Shown here: piece by piece, positions 1,500 to 8,153 of the stretch | Numbering within the stretch: position 1 is the first letter of the stretch | How the letters are laid out: every line of letters starts with the position of its first letter | Assembly: GCA_001816645.1 (NCBI GenBank) | Contig: MHCO01000049.1 | Coordinates: 2,099 to 10,444, forward strand | Length of the DNA: 8,346 nucleotides | Reading direction: 5' to 3' | DNA from: Candidatus Woykebacteria bacterium GWB1_45_5 | GTDB taxonomy: Bacteria; Patescibacteriota; Microgenomatia; Woykebacterales; RBG-16-39-9b | Notes under the pieces: generated by a model | What the model was told of the DNA's origin: nothing | Database searches by the model: none | Seen by the model: the letters and a program-made list of their open reading frames with translations, nothing else | Made by a program: the position numbers and the translations under genes

Positions 1500-1522
1500 A
1501 ATTCAACCCCTGGGGTTGAATT
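1500..1522. promoter_or_regulatory. Perfect palindrome between two divergent promoters (candidate operator)
   Basis: The arms AATTCAACCCC and GGGGTTGAATT are perfect 11-bp inverted repeats around a single central T. The site starts 12 bp beyond the -35 of the leftward fusA promoter. Its last base is the first base of the -35 of the rightward promoter (1522-1527). This is the geometry of an operator that could repress the rightward gene or influence both promoters. The regulator is not identified. Confidence 0.6.
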
Positions 1523-1550
1523 TGACAAAGCCCTTCCCACTGCCAATAAT
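1522..1550 (+). promoter_or_regulatory. Promoter of the small membrane protein gene
   Basis: TTGACA (1522-1527), a 17-bp spacer and AATAAT (1545-1550) make a near-consensus sigma-70 promoter. Transcription would begin near 1557 and reach the ATG at 1599 after about 42 nt. The -35 abuts the palindrome at 1500-1522. Confidence 0.65.
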
Positions 1551-1598
1551 TAAATTAGCACTTTTGACTTAGGCATTTATATCAGCAAAGTAATTAGT

Positions 1599-2841: not shown

Positions 2842-3255
2842 TTATTCTTTTGGCTTTTTACTTCCGTACAAACTCCTGCCTTGTTTTCGATTTTCTACAC
2901 CAGCGGTATCGTAATGACCACGAATTATGTGGTACTTAACACCAGGTAAATCTTTAACTCGACCGCCACGAACTAAAACAATCGAATGCTCCTGCAGATT
3001 ATGGCCAATACCTGGGATGTAAGCGGTAATTTCTTTACGATTGGATAGCCGCACCCTGGCTACTTTACGCAGAGCCGAGTTTGGTTTTTTTGGCGTCATA
3101 GTTTTCACCACGACCGCTACCCCCCGCTTTTGGGGGTTAGTAGTTGGTGCCATCCTTCTTTTGCTAGCGTTGAAAGAACCTCGTAGAGCAGCGGCTTTAA
3201 TTTTTTTAGTTATTTTCTTGCGTCCTTTTCGGACAAGTTGAGTTATTGTTGGCAT
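2842..3255 (-). CDS. rpsL: 30S ribosomal protein S12
   Basis: S12 sits at the 30S decoding centre and affects translational accuracy; it is the classic target of streptomycin resistance mutations. I chose the ATG at 3255, giving 137 residues beginning [14 protein letters not shown], which is the universal S12 start. A GTG at 3270 would add only five unusual residues (MFTEA). Conserved blocks are [20 protein letters not shown] (about 41-60), [16 protein letters not shown], and [10 protein letters not shown] (97-106), which contains the loop whose Asp is methylthiolated in some bacteria. The Lys residues of TPKKPNS and RVKDLP have the streptomycin-sensitive form. The roughly 15-residue insertion before PQKRG resembles the longer S12 of Gram-positive bacteria. 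It is the first gene of the operon here, as no rpoB/rpoC lies upstream. The leader is about 160 nt with a GC-rich dyad close to the start. Confidence 0.97.
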
Positions 3256-3269
3256 TGCTTCAGTGAACA

Positions 3270-3307
3270 CCCGCCTGCCAACGCCTAACGCCGTAGGCCA
3301 TGGCGGG
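3270..3307. repeat. GC-rich dyad just upstream of the rpsL start
   Basis: CCCGCC (3270-3275) pairs with GGCGGG (3302-3307), and inside it GCCTA (3283-3287) pairs with TAGGC (3294-3298). The segment is strikingly GC-rich in an AT-rich surrounding. On the minus strand it ends about 15 nt before the rpsL ATG, where a leader structure could control ribosome access. Confidence 0.5.
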
Positions 3308-3379
3308 CAGGGAGAGCAGCGAACAGTAAACAGCTAATTACAATAAAAAATTTCCTGGTCTCTGCTCAAACGTCGCTAA

Positions 3380-3428
3380 ATTATATCTCGCTAGAGAAAA
3401 AAGCGCGAGATGTAATCTTGCGATTATA
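3380..3428 (-). promoter_or_regulatory. Repeated promoter/leader element, copy 1 (rpsL)
   Basis: This 49-bp element aligns with 7199-7250 at about 45 of 52 columns. On the minus strand it starts with the rpsL -10 (TATAAT), then GCAAGAT, TAC, ATCTCGC, a T-rich stretch containing TTTTTT, GCGAGAT and a second TATAAT. ATCTCGC can pair either with the preceding GCAAGAT (one G-T wobble) or perfectly with the following GCGAGAT, so two exclusive hairpins are possible. The first is followed by a T-run, as in a terminator. The predicted transcription start falls inside the first arm, so an operator acting on DNA is equally possible. Confidence 0.6.
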
Positions 3429-3451
3429 CCGAGAGCCGGCTCAGCTGTCAA
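3423..3451 (-). promoter_or_regulatory. Perfect consensus promoter for rpsL-rpsG
   Basis: On the minus strand TTGACA (3451-3446), a 17-bp spacer and TATAAT (3428-3423) match the sigma-70 consensus at every position. Transcription should begin near 3416, about 160 nt before the rpsL ATG. Such a strong promoter fits a ribosomal protein operon. Confidence 0.85.
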
Positions 3452-3467
3452 TCACCTTGGTAATTCG

Positions 3468-3496
3468 TTGCTAAAAAGAGCCTTGTGTAATATAGT
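3468..3496 (+). promoter_or_regulatory. Promoter of the 6-phosphogluconate dehydrogenase gene
   Basis: TTGCTA (3468-3473), a 17-bp spacer and TATAGT (3491-3496). Only six bases separate the -10 from the ATG at 3503, so transcription should begin at or next to the start codon. It diverges from the rpsL promoter. Confidence 0.6.
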
Positions 3497-3502
3497 AGAA
3501 CT

Positions 3503-4411
3503 ATGCAGGTGGGTATTGTAGGCTTGGGAAAAATGGGTTTTAATTTCTCCCTCCACCTTTTGGAAAAAGGATATCAGGTTGTTGGCTTCGATTCTGATCC
3601 AAAGCAGAGTGAAGAGTTATCAAATCAAGGAATCGTAACAGTAAAGGCTTTAGACAAGCTAGTCGCTAAACTAGCCCCACCGCGAATAATCCTCCTTTCT
3701 GTTCCCCACACTGTTTTGGACGAGGTGCTTTTCGGCGAAAAAGGGCTAATTCGATATTTAGCGGCTGCTGATGCAATTATTGACGCTACCAATTCATATT
3801 ACAAAGATTCGATCCGTCGTGGACAAAAACTAAAAGGAAAAGGAATCAATTATCTGGACACTGGTGTTTCCGGTGGACCAGGTGGTGCAAGAACTGGTGC
3901 GTCAATTATGGTGGGTGGTAATGAGGCAATTTACAAAAAAATGGGAGGTTTGTTTAAAGACTTAGCCGCATCTGATGGTTACGCATATGTAGGACCAGCT
4001 GGTGCTGGGCATTTTGTCAAAATGGTCCACAATGGGATTGAATACGCCCTAATGCAAGCTTATGGTGAGGGGTTTGAACTTCTTGCCAACGGCCCTTACA
4101 AAAACTTAGATCTGCGGCAAATTGCCAAAATTTGGAGCCACGGAGCGGTCGTCGCTTCTTTCATATTAGATAAAATCGAAGCAGTTTTTGCCAAAGATCC
4201 TCGGCTCGAAACAATCGAAGGTTTTGTCGAAGATCTTGGTGAAGGTCGCTGGACGGTAAAAGAAGGGGTAGAAAGTGAAGTGCCGATGGACACAATCGCC
4301 CACGCTCTCTTTGCCAGATTTCGAAGCCGCCAAAAAGATTCTTTCGCCGCTAAACTTTCTGCCGCCCTTCGCCACGAATTCGGCGGCCACTCGGTAAAGG
4401 GCAAAGAGTAG
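3503..4411 (+). CDS. gnd: 6-phosphogluconate dehydrogenase, decarboxylating (short form)
   Basis: The enzyme oxidatively decarboxylates 6-phosphogluconate to ribulose 5-phosphate in the cytosol, the last oxidative step of the pentose phosphate pathway. The 302 residues match the short bacterial form of about 300, not the 470-residue E. coli form. The Rossmann motif GLGKMG is at residues 7-12 and Asp30 follows the second strand (VVGFDSDP), an arrangement that favours NAD over NADP by inference. The substrate loop DTGVSGGPGGARTG is at 119-132. The catalytic motif FVKMVHNGIE (171-180) supplies the Lys and Glu equivalent to sheep Lys183 and Glu190. GRWTV (248-252) and the terminal HEFGGH complete the signature and separate it from 3-hydroxyisobutyrate dehydrogenases. 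The promoter -10 ends six bases before the ATG, so the mRNA is probably leaderless. It converges on the next gene with 7 bp between stop codons. Confidence 0.93.
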   Translation: MQVGIVGLGKMGFNFSLHLLEKGYQVVGFDSDPKQSEELSNQGIVTVKALDKLVAKLAPPRIILLSVPHTVLDEVLFGEKGLIRYLAAADAIIDATNSYYKDSIRRGQKLKGKGINYLDTGVSGGPGGARTGASIMVGGNEAIYKKMGGLFKDLAASDGYAYVGPAGAGHFVKMVHNGIEYALMQAYGEGFELLANGPYKNLDLRQIAKIWSHGAVVASFILDKIEAVFAKDPRLETIEGFVEDLGEGRWTVKEGVESEVPMDTIAHALFARFRSRQKDSFAAKLSAALRHEFGGHSVKGKE

Positions 4412-4418
4412 ACTTTTC

Positions 4419-4703
4419 TTATGCCACCCCTTTTTTCTTGTCTACGGTTTTTGGCTGGGGTGGTTTTTCCTTTAAAATATCTCTATAAACTTTACCACGT
4501 AGAGTAGCAGCTTTTTCGATGGCTTGGAGAAGTTGTTTGCGTAGTTTCGGATCGTCAGGTGCAGTTTCTAGCGCCCCAGAAAGTGCCCACATCAGTCTTT
4601 CTTGCGAAGCTTTGAGCCGCTCAAAAATTTCCTCCTTAGTTGGTACGTGACCAAATTTTTTAATTAATTCTTCTTTTTGCTTTTTGGTCGGTTTCCTTCT
4701 CAC
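4419..4703 (-). CDS. Small charged helical protein, unknown function
   Basis: I do not recognise this 94-residue product. It begins with a very basic segment (RRKPTKKQKEELIKKFG). A helical middle follows with KEEIFERLKASQERLMWALSGALETAPDD and KLRKQLLQAIEKAATLRGKVYRD, and a Pro/Lys-rich tail ends it (KEKPPQPKTVDKKK). There is no membrane segment, cysteine cluster or signal peptide. The start is GTG at 4703; an ATG just upstream is followed at once by a stop. There is no Shine-Dalgarno site, and a plausible promoter (4715-4742) would start the mRNA about five bases before the GTG. The composition would suit a nucleic-acid or ribosome-associated protein, but this is only a guess. It converges with the dehydrogenase gene. 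Confidence 0.7.
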   Translation of the reverse strand: MRRKPTKKQKEELIKKFGHVPTKEEIFERLKASQERLMWALSGALETAPDDPKLRKQLLQAIEKAATLRGKVYRDILKEKPPQPKTVDKKKGVA

Positions 4704-4714
4704 ATAAAAATTTT

Positions 4715-4742
4715 AACATATTATGTATTCTAATGTTCTCAA
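4715..4742 (-). promoter_or_regulatory. Promoter of the 94-residue protein gene
   Basis: On the minus strand TTGAGA (4742-4737), a 16-bp spacer and TATGTT (4720-4715). The -35 lies inside the dispersed repeat copy at 4726-4754. The start of transcription would fall about five bases before the GTG codon at 4703. Confidence 0.4.
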
Positions 4743-4769
4743 GAATTTGAGGATGTGGTGGGGGAAGGT
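4726..4769 (+). repeat. Dispersed intergenic repeat, copy A
   Basis: Positions 4726-4754 match 8125-8153 at 27 of 29 positions, with the core AAGAATTTGAGGATG at 4741-4755. CTCAA and TTGAG form a small dyad around GAAT. A G-rich tail, GTGGTGGGGGAAGGT (4755-4769), matches 8183-8197 at 13 of 15 positions. It lies between a minus-strand gene and a small plus-strand ORF. Confidence 0.6.
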
Positions 4770-4796
4770 ATCAAGGAAAAATACATTTGATACCTT
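4765..4796. repeat. Perfect 10-bp hairpin downstream of repeat copy A
   Basis: AAGGTATCAA (4765-4774) pairs perfectly with TTGATACCTT (4787-4796) across a 12-base loop. No T-run follows, so it is more likely an operator or leader structure than a terminator. It overlaps the end of the G-rich tail of the repeat and precedes the small ORF at 4830. Confidence 0.5.
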
Positions 4797-4829
4797 GCTT
4801 ATTCGAATTTAAGGAGTAGACTGAAGGTA

Positions 4830-5021
4830 ATGACCGAAAATGTAAGTGATTTTATTTCCTTTCATAATGCCCATATATTAAATCTGGAACTATCCGCCAG
4901 CTTCGAAACAGTCTCAGCATTTGCCGCCAGGAAAAATATCGCTTTGGAGGATTTATCGATCGAAAAGCACCGTCTACCATTCATCAACTGGCGCACCAGC
5001 CTTTCCAGCTCTCAAATCTAG
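4830..5021 (+). CDS. Possible 63-residue protein, unknown function
   Basis: This small ORF is not recognised. It starts MTENVSDFISFHNAHILNLE and has no membrane segment or known motif. In its favour, AAGGAG lies at 4811-4816, one of the very few Shine-Dalgarno-like sequences in this window although 13 bases from the ATG, and a terminator-like hairpin with a T-rich tail (5065-5097) follows 44 bp after the stop. Against it are the short length, unremarkable composition and lack of a convincing -10. It could instead be part of a non-coding transcript. Confidence 0.3.
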   Translation: MTENVSDFISFHNAHILNLELSASFETVSAFAARKNIALEDLSIEKHRLPFINWRTSLSSSQI

Positions 5022-5064
5022 ATCTAAGTTCTACCAAGCGATTATCCAAGACCCGCACAAAACT

Positions 5065-5097
5065 CTATCGATAATCCGATAGTATTTGCTTTTTTTG
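5065..5097 (+). terminator. Intrinsic terminator before the helicase gene
   Basis: CTATCG (5065-5070) and CGATAG (5077-5082) form a perfect 6-bp stem over ATAATC, followed by a T-rich run ending in seven T residues (5083-5097). It would end transcription arriving from the 4830-5021 region before the helicase promoter. Confidence 0.55.
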
Positions 5098-5114
5098 CTT
5101 CTTTGTGTTAAACT
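5086..5114 (+). promoter_or_regulatory. Probable promoter of the DEAD-box helicase gene
   Basis: TTGCTT (5086-5091), a 17-bp spacer and TAAACT (5109-5114) make a moderate sigma-70 match. Transcription from about 5121 would give a leader of roughly 138 nt. The -35 overlaps the T-tract of the preceding terminator. Confidence 0.4.
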
Positions 5115-5258
5115 ATTCTAGTTGAATTAGAATACGAGCTAATACATTGCTCTTCCTTCGCAATTTCTGCATAGGTATCTTTGAAATTAGCTCCTAAGGT
5201 TTCAAAGTTCTTGCAGATCACCTTCAAGACTTTCCCTAAGTTTCTCTTTCAATAAATT
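5115..5258 (+). promoter_or_regulatory. Structured 5' leader of the helicase mRNA
   Basis: Several inverted repeats are stacked here. ATTCTA pairs with TAGAAT near 5115-5133 and GAGC with GCTC soon after. The main structure has an outer stem TCTGCA/TGCAGA (5166-5171, 5212-5217), a perfect 8-bp stem CTTTGAAA/TTTCAAAG (5179-5186, 5200-5207) and an inner TTAG/CTAA. No Shine-Dalgarno site precedes the start. Long regulated leaders are known for cold-induced DEAD-box helicase genes of other bacteria, so control by RNA folding is a reasonable inference. Confidence 0.45.
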
Positions 5259-6509
5259 ATGCATAAACGAAATGCGATGAGCTTTGGCAAACACCGCCGA
5301 GGGTTTGAACGAAGAAAATTTAATAAATTTGCTAATGGCGGTAGCTACAGCTATCCCAAATTTTTTTCGGACGCAAGAAGGTATACTAGCGGACCTAAAA
5401 GCGAATTGGGAGATGATATAAGCATCTTTATAAAGAAAGCGACTGTGGCCTCGGATGAGGCTGCTTACATCCCCCAGAACCGGTTTGCAAACTTCGAGAT
5501 TGTAGAAGCTCTGAAGCAAAATATCGCTAACAAAGGCTACAGCCAACTTACCCCTATTCAGGATAAAGCAATTCTTCCCATTCTTGAAGGAAGGGATTTG
5601 ATAGGATTGGCAACTACAGGCACCGGTAAGACAGCGGCTTTTTTGATCCCTCTAATCAACAAGATATATACGGACAGAAATCAAAGAGTTTTAATCGTCA
5701 CGCCGACTAGAGAATTGGCGGGGCAAATAAACGAAGAGCTTCACATATTAGCCAGGGGGATGGATATTTACTCCAGCCTGGTAATTGGTGGGACCGATAT
5801 ACATAGGCAGATTTCCGATATTAGACGCCGACCCAGCGTTGTCATTGGCACACCGGGTAGGCTCAAGGATCTTATCGAAAGAGGGGCTCTACATCTAGAA
5901 GATTTCCAAACCATAGTTTTGGATGAAGTAGATATGATGGTGGATATTGGTTTTATCAGAGATGTTAAATATTTCATTTCGCTACTTCCAAGGCAGCGCC
6001 AATCGCTGTTCTTCTCTGCCACTATCCCCCCGAAGGTGAGGGAGATACTTGACGCCTTTGTGACAGATCCAGTGACAGTCTCAGTCAAAAAGCAAGATAC
6101 TGCGGAAAATATTGACCAAGATGTCGTCAAAGTAGCGAGTCACGACCAAAAGCTCTCCCAACTCCATGATCTTTTAAACAAAGAAGGCTTTAGCAAGGTG
6201 CTTATCTTCGGCCGTACCAAACATGGTATTGAAAAGCTTAATCGACAATTGACCGATCGGGGTTTCCGAGTCGGGGCACTTCATGGCAATAGGACACAGG
6301 GGCAGCGACAAAGGACCCTGAAAAGCTTCAAGCAGGATGAGATCAGCATACTGCTTGCTACTGATGTAGCCTCCAGGGGACTTGATATTGATAATGTTTC
6401 CCACGTAATCAACTACGATCTACCGGAAACTTATGACGATTATATTCACCGTATCGGCCGCACCGGACGAATGAATAAAAAAGGAACAGCGCTGACTTTT
6501 GTTGACTAA
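5259..6509 (+). CDS. DEAD-box ATP-dependent RNA helicase
   Basis: This is a cytosolic ATP-dependent RNA-unwinding enzyme of superfamily 2, likely for ribosome assembly or RNA turnover. A basic 75-residue N-terminus (GKHRRGFERRKFNKFANGG) precedes the Q motif (FANF at 77-80, Gln101). The helicase motifs follow in order: I ATTGTGKT (118-125), Ia PTREL (149-153), Ib TPGR (198-201), II as DEVD (222-225), III SAT (253-255), V TDVASRGLDI (368-377) and VI HRIGRTGR (397-404). Motif II departs from the usual DEAD, but the ATP-binding Asp-Glu pair is kept. The protein ends at GTALTFVD, soon after motif VI, so it lacks the last helix of a typical RecA2 domain and any C-terminal tail. The frame after the stop shows no obvious continuation. 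An in-frame stop just upstream fixes the start at ATG 5259 or ATG 5277. A long structured leader precedes it. Confidence 0.95.
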   Translation: MHKRNAMSFGKHRRGFERRKFNKFANGGSYSYPKFFSDARRYTSGPKSELGDDISIFIKKATVASDEAAYIPQNRFANFEIVEALKQNIANKGYSQLTPIQDKAILPILEGRDLIGLATTGTGKTAAFLIPLINKIYTDRNQRVLIVTPTRELAGQINEELHILARGMDIYSSLVIGGTDIHRQISDIRRRPSVVIGTPGRLKDLIERGALHLEDFQTIVLDEVDMMVDIGFIRDVKYFISLLPRQRQSLFFSATIPPKVREILDAFVTDPVTVSVKKQDTAENIDQDVVKVASHDQKLSQLHDLLNKEGFSKVLIFGRTKHGIEKLNRQLTDRGFRVGALHGNRTQGQRQRTLKSFKQDEISILLATDVASRGLDIDNVSHVINYDLPETYDDYIHRIGRTGRMNKKGTALTFVD

Positions 6510-6541
6510 AAATTCTACTTTCCGCAACTCCAACAACAAGG

Positions 6542-6556
6542 AAGAATTTGAGGATG
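6542..6556 (+). repeat. Dispersed intergenic repeat, copy B
   Basis: AAGAATTTGAGGATG, identical to the core of copy A, preceded by AAGG as in copy C and followed by a G-rich stretch and CGAGTTT, which resembles CGAGCTTT after the tail of copy D. It lies in the 59-bp gap between the convergent helicase and 95-residue protein genes. Confidence 0.55.
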
Positions 6557-6568
6557 GGGGGCGAGTTT

Positions 6569-6856
6569 CTAATACTTCCGATTATTTACCAGAGAGATTG
6601 CGGCATTCTGGAAAAGGGTAGCCAAGAGAAGGGCCTTCTCGCCTTTTTCAACACCATCTTTTATTTTCGGAAGCCTTCCTACTTCGTTAAGCAAATTTAC
6701 AAGGTAAGGTGGGATCGACTTTGGGTCTATTTCTTGTTTTCTTTTTAGCGCTTCAAGGTAAAATCGATCGGCTGATTTGATCGAATTTCGGTAATAACCA
6801 ACCGCGGCCCGCTTTAAATCCATCGCCAACGATGAAAGAGGAATATAATTATTCAT
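6569..6856 (-). CDS. Helical partner of the DUF5674 protein, unknown function
   Basis: I do not recognise this 95-residue protein. It appears almost wholly helical: LSSLAMDLKRAAVGYYRNSIKSADRF, then FYLEALKRKQEIDP, a proline break at IPPYLVNLLNEVGRLPKI, and a last helix EKALLLATLFQNAAISLVNN. There are no cysteines, membrane segments or signal peptide. Its ATG (6856-6854) overlaps the end of the upstream DUF5674 gene by four bases, so the two are almost certainly translationally coupled and probably act together. A small acidic or basic partner directly after a compact conserved protein is also the layout of toxin-antitoxin pairs, but no toxin motif is visible. It converges on the helicase gene. 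Confidence 0.75.
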   Translation of the reverse strand: MNNYIPLSSLAMDLKRAAVGYYRNSIKSADRFYLEALKRKQEIDPKSIPPYLVNLLNEVGRLPKIKDGVEKGEKALLLATLFQNAAISLVNNRKY

Positions 6857-7191
6857 AAAACGTCTTTAAAAAAGAAGCGCATTAGATCATTAAACTTTTC
6901 TCTTATTTTTGGCTCCTGAATCTCGTTGCTGGTATTGTTATCATTAGGCCGAATATTTATAAACGCGTTGCAGTCGACCACTTTTGTCTCAAGGTCTACT
7001 CCTCCACCCCAAAGATTGGATTGTAACGAGCCTTTTTCTAATAAAAGCTTCTCAGATTCGAAATGCCGGTCACAACCGGCCGAGCAAACCCCTCTTTCAA
7101 TATCGATCACGGTTTTTATGTACACATCAAAGAGTTCGCGTAACTGTTTGATTTCTTCTTGGGTAAATGGTTCCTCTTTCGTTATGATCAC
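6853..7191 (-). CDS. DUF5674 family protein
   Basis: This 112-residue protein matches my memory of the DUF5674 family, found largely in candidate-phylum bacteria and of unknown biochemical role. Recognisable blocks are VIDIERG (28-34), the invariant-looking His43, LLLEKGSLQSNLWGGG (49-64), FINIRPNDNNTS (77-88) and PKIREKF (94-100). The polar block of Asn, Arg and Ser residues near 79-88 and the WGG turn would suit a ligand-binding or catalytic pocket, which is inference. Cys36, Cys40 and Cys74 are not arranged as a clear metal site. The start is GTG at 7191, giving the typical MIITKEEP opening; no Shine-Dalgarno site is present. It is the first gene of a two-gene operon with the 95-residue helical protein. 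Its promoter region carries copy 2 of the element found before rpsL, so the two operons may be co-regulated. Confidence 0.85.
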   Translation of the reverse strand: MIITKEEPFTQEEIKQLRELFDVYIKTVIDIERGVCSAGCDRHFESEKLLLEKGSLQSNLWGGGVDLETKVVDCNAFINIRPNDNNTSNEIQEPKIREKFNDLMRFFFKDVL

Positions 7192-7198
7192 AAGAGTG

Positions 7199-7250
7199 AT
7201 TATATCTTGCTAAAGAAACAAGCCGCAAGATGTAATCCTTGCGGATTATA
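7199..7250 (-). promoter_or_regulatory. Repeated promoter/leader element, copy 2 (DUF5674 operon)
   Basis: This 52-bp copy of the element lies at the rpsL promoter's equivalent position. On the minus strand it reads TATAAT, CCGCAAG, GATTAC, ATCTTGC, a T-rich stretch, GCAAGAT and a second TATAAT. ATCTTGC pairs perfectly with GCAAGAT, where copy 1 has ATCTCGC and GCGAGAT: a C-G pair replaced by T-A. The alternative stem CCGCAAG/CTTGCGG is perfect over 7 bp. The second TATAAT ends seven bases before the GTG start, so it could also act as a -10 for a leaderless transcript. Confidence 0.6.
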
Positions 7251-7272
7251 ATATACCGCTGGTTTATGTTCA
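7245..7272 (-). promoter_or_regulatory. Promoter of the DUF5674 operon
   Basis: On the minus strand TGAACA (7272-7267), a 16-bp spacer and a perfect TATAAT (7250-7245). The -35 is a four-of-six match. The -10 is the first base group of the repeated element, as at rpsL. Confidence 0.5.
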
Positions 7273-7289
7273 GTTGGTGAGATATTAGG

Positions 7290-7304
7290 AAGAATTTGAG
7301 AATG
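7290..7304 (+). repeat. Dispersed intergenic repeat, copy C
   Basis: AAGAATTTGAGAATG, preceded by TAGG, one base different from the core of copies A and B. It lies between the DUF5674 promoter and the 3' end of the antitoxin gene and lacks the G-rich tail. Confidence 0.5.
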
Positions 7305-7373: not shown

Positions 7374-7529
7374 TCACTTATTTTTCTGATTTTGATAATC
7401 CTTGATGCTGATTAAAACAACCATCGGTTTTCTCGACCTGGATATAATAACCTTCTTACCGCCATAATAAACCTCATTTAAAATCTCAGAAAAATTCTGC
7501 CTTGCCTGTTTTGCGCTTACTACTTTCAT
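7374..7529 (-). CDS. Phd/YefM-type antitoxin, probably frameshifted, no toxin beside it
   Basis: The 51-residue product starts MKVVSAKQARQNFSEILNEV and continues with YYGGKKVIISRSRKPMVVLISIKDY, the Phd/YefM DNA-binding fold: a short strand, the ARxNFSEIL helix, and the strand pair around KPMVVL. These antitoxins bind their own promoter and block a toxin with their C-terminal tail. This one stops soon after the DNA-binding part, while relatives usually have about 70-90 residues. In the next frame, joined at a run of five A, the sequence continues KISELDTFGLFSFEALLYF... to a stop at 7313. Removing one A would give a 71-residue protein. No toxin gene lies downstream, where the DUF5674 promoter begins, nor directly upstream. 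The mRNA is probably leaderless: the -10 ends nine bases before the ATG. Confidence 0.75.
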   Translation of the reverse strand: MKVVSAKQARQNFSEILNEVYYGGKKVIISRSRKPMVVLISIKDYQNQKNK

Positions 7530-8124: not shown

Positions 8125-8153
8125 TATTCTAATGTTCTTAAGAATTTGAGAAT
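8125..8153 (+). repeat. Dispersed intergenic repeat, copy D
   Basis: This copy matches copy A (4726-4754) at 27 of 29 positions; TTCTTAAGAA is here a perfect 10-bp palindrome. The G-rich tail GTGGTGGAGGATGGT, contiguous in copy A, lies 29 bp further on, at 8183-8197, as if the element had been split. Confidence 0.6.

Follow-up and report, generated by a model that had tools for sequence, protein, structure and literature searches.

Introduction

Bacterial miniature inverted-repeat transposable elements (MITEs) and other small repeats, among them Correia, RUP and ERIC, are portrayed in excerpts of two reviews as short, non-coding, dispersed sequences of ~100-200 bp (PMC2229807) that lie mostly between genes and form stable stem-loops (PMC10969869, PMC2229807). 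According to the same excerpts, Correia elements carry sigma70-like promoters and pneumococcal repeats insert into one another (PMC10969869, PMC2229807), and the palindromic elements of Rickettsia, repeats of 105-146 bp, lie in frame in conserved genes (PMC2229807). These excerpts place small bacterial repeats between or upstream of genes and do not name the -10 hexamer as an insertion site (PMC10969869, PMC2229807). Here we describe a family of hairpin units in the genome of Candidatus Woykebacteria bacterium GWB1_45_5 (882,399 bases in 55 contigs, 92.5% complete), two of which lie upstream of rpsL and of a gene for a DUF5674 protein within the 8,346-nt stretch under study (the window; contig MHCO01000049.1, positions 2,099 to 10,444). 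We think it probable that these units are a small non-autonomous mobile element that inserts at TATAAT, above all in the -10 boxes of promoters.

Like the bacterial MITEs, the units are short, non-coding, dispersed stem-loops, mostly intergenic and with nested insertions; unlike them, they measure ~43-51 bp, have no terminal inverted repeats, end in direct TATAAT words, favor the -10 box and have no partner transposase in searches with PF01797 and PF00665. In-frame insertion into a conserved open reading frame (ORF), as in Rickettsia, was found once, in an msrB-like gene, at a length of 48 bp that falls outside the Rickettsia range. REP/RAYT systems consist of short hairpin units, single or tandem and mostly extragenic, together with a Y1 transposase; the layout is alike here, but PF01797 had no match in this 92.5% complete genome. 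Elements of the IS200/IS605 type excise and insert as single strands, next to a fixed word. They lack terminal inverted repeats, carry subterminal hairpins, are flanked by a fixed word and have inner segments that pair with the end words, traits that recur here by analogy only, the unit being far shorter and without a Y1 TnpA match. Mobile promoters are repeated, promoter-bearing pieces of DNA before unrelated genes; that position is shared, but in our case the -35 box seems to be the host promoter's and not the unit's. Our literature search returned no paper for the phrase 'putative mobile promoters' and, in the portions of papers that it yielded, no description of this unit.

A genome-wide family of units

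The two window copies, at 3380..3428 and 7199..7250, both on the minus strand, align at 45 of 52 columns (86.5%), just as the original prediction had stated in proposing one switch-like promoter and leader that ties rpsL to the DUF5674 operon. It missed that each copy finishes, as well as starts, with TATAAT, and that the pattern extends through the genome. In this genome (G000), blastn with copy 1 found 42 places, and a covariance model built from 32 aligned units (R1) found 47 at E<=0.001, the threshold for all R1 counts, with nine more at E values of 0.001-0.1, mostly antisense shadows of units. The 47 copies rule out chance or artefact as the source of the likeness. A covariance-model search had been proposed as the check, with few other copies counting against the idea, and on that score the prediction fared well. 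Its biological conclusion did not: because they belong to a 47-copy family, the two leaders are not a private rpsL/DUF5674 switch. The unit precedes dozens of unrelated genes, is patchy over genomes and occurs in one coding sequence, and the rpsL and DUF5674 copies are likely two insertions without a special link, DUF5674 having one of many copies.

Merging the 47 matches gave 41 clusters, with an exact TATAAT at the left end of 32, the right end of 38 and both ends of 30. The unit spans ~43-51 bp, or in most cases 47-57 nt counting both ends, and is short, non-coding, multi-copy and mostly intergenic. Some clusters are tandem arrays that repeat every 43-51 bp (35 bp for a short form), one TATAAT serving two neighbors, and near-identical copies stand at unrelated genes of the same genome. 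The genes behind units include rpsL (by Pfam), rpmH, rpmF, rplY, several tRNA synthetases, RF2, mreB, murD, recR and recX (from protein starts), and those for tRNA-Leu and tRNA-Cys (by ARAGORN). Compound forms also recur at separate loci (L-numbers denote fetched loci): a double unit of 84 bp that opens with the 35-bp short form lies at L017 and L021, and one of 120 bp with an extra palindrome inside its second unit lies at L011 and L034. G006, one of six relatives from the same family (G001-G006), has the same double form at L084 and L087, the right end of the latter being decayed.

Anatomy and covarying arms

The unit is laid out as TATAATC, hairpin 1, GATTACATC, arm A, TTGTTTC (arm B), arm C and GATATAAT, and its consensus reads TATAATC-GCAA-GATTACATCTCGC, a few bases, TTGTTTCTC, a few bases, GCGAGATATAAT. 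Beyond TATAAT the ends are CGCAAGAT and ..GCGAGA, which are not terminal inverted repeats; the inverted pairing is internal. Copy 1, of 49 nt with both TATAATs or 43 bp minus one of them, runs on the minus strand from its left TATAAT (3423..3428) through hairpin 1 (AATC-GCAA-GATT, 3414..3425), arm A (ATCTCGC, 3405..3411), the arm B core (TCTC, 3394..3397) and arm C (GCGAGAT, 3385..3391) to its right TATAAT (3380..3385). Copy 2, of 52 nt and on the same strand, has its left TATAAT at 7245..7250, hairpin 1 (AATCC-GCAA-GGATT) at 7234..7247, arm A (ATCTTGC) at 7225..7231, the arm B core (TCTT) at 7213..7216, arm C (GCAAGAT) at 7204..7210 and its right TATAAT at 7199..7204. This last word lies 7 nt upstream of the GTG start of the DUF5674 gene (6853..7191, minus strand), a leaderless spacing.

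Arm C (GCGAGAT) has two possible partners, arm A (ATCTCGC) and arm B (TTTCTC), the TCTC core of the latter facing GAGA within arm C in copy 1. The original prediction had instead let the middle arm, ATCTCGC or ATCTTGC, choose between its two flanks. Its pairing with the later GCGAGAT or GCAAGAT stands, and so does that with the earlier GCAAGAT, but with one mismatch in copy 1; the exchange of C-G for T-A between the copies is real. From copy to copy, the three arms vary in concert, as in TCTTGC/TTTCTT/GCAAGA, TCCTGC/TTTCCT/GCAGGA, TCAGAC/TATCAG/GTCTGA and TCGCGT/TTTCGC/ACGCGA (arms A/B/C), so that C stays able to pair with either A or B. Other genomes have AAACTC or TAACTC in B together with GCGAGT in C, and A follows incompletely. 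These variants come from a listing of units that passed the pairing thresholds of our script, so that the pairings in it are selected, and the actual test was made on 43 distinct rows. There, hairpin 1 and A:C were paired in 95.1% of cells, with two-sided changes at five pairs, and B:C in 87.6%, with two-sided changes at four pairs in 18 cells, counts that related rows inflate according to the warning of the covariation tool. The observed covariation score was reached by none of 500 shuffles for A:C and B:C alike, and slid versions scored lower. B:C has weak spots: the pair of columns 56-71 is unpaired in 34 of 43 rows, and its further pair types were matched by 42 of 500 shuffles. The alternative pairing is preserved through two-sided changes across the unit family, and covariation extends beyond the single pair, the absence of which had been named as grounds for giving up the idea.

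As single strands, both window copies fold better than shuffles on either strand (z -2.4 to -4.4). The TTTTTT that was noted behind the first hairpin of copy 1 is present there, in that one of the two copies, and is untypical of the family; a T-run occurs in 2 of 32 aligned units, and a terminator made of hairpin and T-run was rejected on that count. A self-contained promoter with TTGTTT as its -35 was also rejected, since this word lies ~11 nt from the right TATAAT and the test at 16-18 nt stayed at background.

Position at promoters and start codons

Both copies were predicted to open with the -10 of a promoter, and the TATAAT of copy 1 does look like a real one: TTGACA at 3446..3451 on the minus strand lies 17 nt upstream, relatives have a similar rpsL promoter, and the word is probably the orthologous rpsL -10 box. 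A -35-like CTGAAC precedes the left TATAAT of copy 2 at the same distance of 17 nt (7268..7273, minus strand). Among 36 hand-picked clusters, whose left end is uncertain or shifted for IleRS, MreB, TyrRS and RF2, a TTGACA-like hexamer (>=4/6) stands before the left end with a spacer of 16-18 in 14, compared with 0-9 in 14 other spacer windows. Before the right TATAAT the -35 signal is not above background (8 of 36 with >=4/6 at 16-18 nt, other windows 0-9; one with >=5/6), and no complete promoter inside the repeat was found by this test.

In 22 of the 41 clusters, taken from model matches as for the end counts, the right end lies 6-14 nt upstream of an ORF start codon; control values were a mean of 6.8% and a maximum of 19.5% for 71 shifted offsets, and 316 of 6000 (5.3%) for random positions in loci fetched from our genome. 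Two further clusters finish 13 and 14 nt upstream of tRNA genes. The right-end distance corresponds to that between a -10 box and a leaderless start, and from the sequence we predict leaderless promoters. Within 60 upstream regions from relatives, TATAAT matches of >=5/6 concentrate 5-14 nt before the start: the two 5-nt bins there hold 35 of them, and each remaining occupied bin holds 1-8. For L093 and L094 we placed the start manually, in the case of L094 probably 21 nt inside the gene. Genome-wide, TATAAT occurs 577 times compared with 640 for a reversed control, and with an ATG 5-9 nt behind it 60 times compared with 25. A -35 on the left and a gene on the right fit a unit that has entered a -10 box.

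An in-frame unit in an msrB-like gene

In another genome, G168, codon 2 of an ORF is followed by an in-frame unit of 48 bp, which lengthens the ORF by 16 codons to give MPYN-RSRLHRELLVSHSR-YN-KLTPQ; the protein start as read is MPYN, RSRLHRELLVSHSRYN and KLTPQ. Homologues of this ORF carry PF01641, and the named ones are methionine-R-sulfoxide reductases. Among the best 120 of 3590 homologues, YN stands once, directly before KLT, in 74 and FN in 19 (93 together), and GTE falls within the first 25 residues in 102, compared with position 33 in the G168 query. Six of the 19 N-termini that we inspected from those 120 have longer starts unlike the query's. The sequence reads as an insertion at TATAA(T/C), outside a promoter, with the word left on both sides. 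Copies inside coding regions had been named in advance as telling against the leader switch, and here at least one exists.

Empty and filled sites in related genomes

A joined protein query for 11 genes downstream of units, run on eight genomes, returned 94 places, 82 of them in relatives, and 60 of these 82 upstream regions were fetched; paralogues were left out, as were orthologues such as RecX of G001 and G004, ValRS of G002 and most of G035. At rpsL, G001-G006 all have an uninterrupted promoter and no model match. Five of the six have TTGACA (spacer 17 in four, 18 in G006) and G001 has TTGATA-17-TATAAT; in our genome, TTGACA-17-TATAAT is followed by the unit and then by a second TATAAT. 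That no unit interrupts the rpsL -10 in any of these relatives further undercuts the tie to DUF5674. The RF2 site holds a unit in G006 and none in G001 or G002, and the mreB site is empty in G006 and, by eye, filled in G002. A wider covariance model (R2) had sense matches at E<=1e-3 in 2 of the relatives' 60 upstream regions of the 11 genes (L106, L126), and by eye there are decayed or nested units in L109 and L145.

Spread over genomes and search for a mover

R1 matched 6 of 59 genomes in the set of relatives. R2, with filters that lose weak matches, matched 21 of 373 class genomes, spread over three families, and 5 of 379 in a sample of the phylum, all within this class; our genome is included in each count. 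Scanning named genomes for the pattern yielded 14 stretches, in metagenome-assembled genomes (MAGs) of Woykebacteria, Daviesbacteria and Curtissbacteria, in MAGs labeled unclassified Patescibacteria or 'bacterium', and in one Sphingobacterium. The last is taken for chance, as it seems by eye to lie inside an ORF and lacks the unit's ends. A phage or plasmid origin was likewise set aside: copy 1 had no match, and the one viral contig that fits the pattern lacks arm C and the right TATAAT. In G078, a reverse-oriented unit, unlike the usual orientation, stands just upstream of a dnaK-like start, judged from translation (L173). Our own genome has one tyrosine recombinase.

Proposed mechanism and alternatives

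The reading of the unit as a mobile element that enters -10 boxes is supported by its many copies, its TATAAT ends, its covarying arms, its position at start codons, the uninterrupted -10 boxes of relatives and the in-frame unit of msrB. Movement would then proceed by insertion into TATAAT, which would be rebuilt on each side. With the word restored at either end, the old -35/-10 pair would stay on the left and a -10 at the old start-codon distance would come to lie on the right. From the left TATAAT, with the old -35, the transcript would gain a hairpin leader, and the right TATAAT, at the old leaderless position, may act as an extra -10. We propose that insertion is tolerated because the box is rebuilt at each end, and the arms may be conserved because the mover needs folded DNA.

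It is tempting to speculate that the unit is a promoter parasite that locates -10 boxes by base pairing, a self-guided element served by a putative mover, although we regard this as rather unlikely. The inner segments GATTACA and TTGTAAC/TTGTATC are near-complements of TATAATC and GTTATAA/GATATAA at six of seven positions, and at five of seven for the TTGTTTC usual in our genome. A folded single strand could in this way display TATAAT at each end as a site of cutting and joining, and the word paired with would be the word invaded, single-stranded in an open promoter.

Several observations weigh against insertion at TATAAT and recent spread. At rpsL, with the sequences anchored at TATAAT, 16 of 30 left-flank positions agree with G002 and G005 but 6-12 of 30 with the other relatives. 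On the right flank the agreement is 1-6 of 12, so that orthology is not demonstrated for that side of the site. In G001, a unit-like remnant (TATAATACGCAAGATTGTATCTTGCGTATTG, L138) with a further TATAAT lies ~130 nt before rpsL, upstream of the intact promoter. Exact TATAAT is missing from 9 of the 41 left ends, 17 of the 41 clusters have neither a start codon nor a tRNA at 6-14 nt, and duplication of the target is indistinguishable from a unit that itself carries one TATAAT. PF01797 (Y1) had no match in G000-G004 and G006, one in G005 and two in G035, and PF00665 (rve) none in all eight genomes, other transposase families not having been searched and our genome being 92.5% complete; a mover may have diverged or been lost, or may lie in the part absent from the assembly. 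Finally, at least four genes that have a unit here also have one in another genus. In G002 these are the L009/L069 gene and, by eye, MreB; in G006 they are RF2, for which G005 by eye has a decayed unit, and IleRS, where the G006 unit lies 68 nt before the start. As those genomes have few units, less sharing would be expected from scattered recent insertion, so that some units are inherited or their sites are hot spots, which weighs against a purely recent spread, and absence from relatives could be loss.

This sharing between genera bears on each of the other explanations. It would suit an RNA switch or attenuator, in which a transcript from the left TATAAT folds hairpin 1 with A:C or B:C and so controls the gene behind; such a switch would also account for pairings preserved through two-sided changes and for the folding of the window copies. 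We nevertheless consider it improbable. Conservation before orthologous genes is not seen: 57 of the 60 upstream regions have no sense match even at E<=0.1, and besides the two at E<=1e-3 there is one weak match (L097, E 0.087). Nor do the target genes have a common theme by our reading, the predicted +1 falls within hairpin 1, the U-run is inconsistent, one copy lies in a coding sequence and the window has no Rfam match at E<=1.

The strong promoter position, the TATAAT ends and the tandem arrays with a TATAAT every 43-51 bp could instead point to a domesticated promoter cassette, once mobile and now kept as its second TATAAT or its hairpins tune expression, and units at the same gene in two genera are in keeping with this. 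Such a cassette seems doubtful to us, as no clear -35 is brought 16-18 nt before the right TATAAT (the 8 of 36 given above) and presence differs gene by gene among relatives. Vertical inheritance of an ancestral promoter architecture, with loss in most relatives, would explain both the shared genes and the occurrence in three families of the class. It is very unlikely, however, given the near-identical copies at unrelated genes of one genome, the double unit at several loci, the nested insertions and the msrB case. Insertion of a mobile element at TATAAT is thus the reading that we favor.

The element appears to use the -10 hexamer and to rebuild it on both sides, and therefore insertion need not kill the gene. 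If this is true, members of the candidate phyla radiation, with their reduced genomes, would have here one route to new promoters and structured leaders. The natural pairs of empty and filled promoters are available for studying leaderless transcription start.

Other features of the window and of unit loci

The rpsL gene (S12, by Pfam) occupies 2842..3255 on the minus strand, with a probable ATG start at 3255; the ORF list begins it at a GTG at 3270. Its leader holds a GC-rich palindrome distinct from the unit (3270..3312), for which blastn found one further place in the genome. Palindromes similar to this type (CCTGCCCGC..GCGGGC) are nested between hairpin 1 and arm A of other units (L013, L028, L036, L145). 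In all, two palindromes other than the unit's own are nested within some units. A third palindrome (TAGGAGT..CGACGCAGAAAGC..GCTTTCTA) lies in the loop from arm A to arm B or replaces the left half of the unit, at L011 (1301-1385), L013, L025, L026, L031, L033, L034 and L035, in several cases flanked by TA on both sides. At L017, a tRNA-like start (GCGCTTGTAGCTCAATCGGATAG, ~1520-1583, minus strand) behind the unit runs into other sequence, and a complete tRNA-Arg lies at 1370-1446 on the same strand, 137 nt from the unit; this is perhaps an interrupted or duplicated tRNA.

The window also has four exact copies of AAGAATTTGAGRAT on the plus strand (4741-4754, 6542-6555, 7290-7303 and 8140-8153), which is absent from shuffles and from the other fetched loci except those of this same contig and is possibly a local recombination or cassette boundary repeat. 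A short ORF for a PhdYeFM-type antitoxin is located at 7374-7529 on the minus strand.

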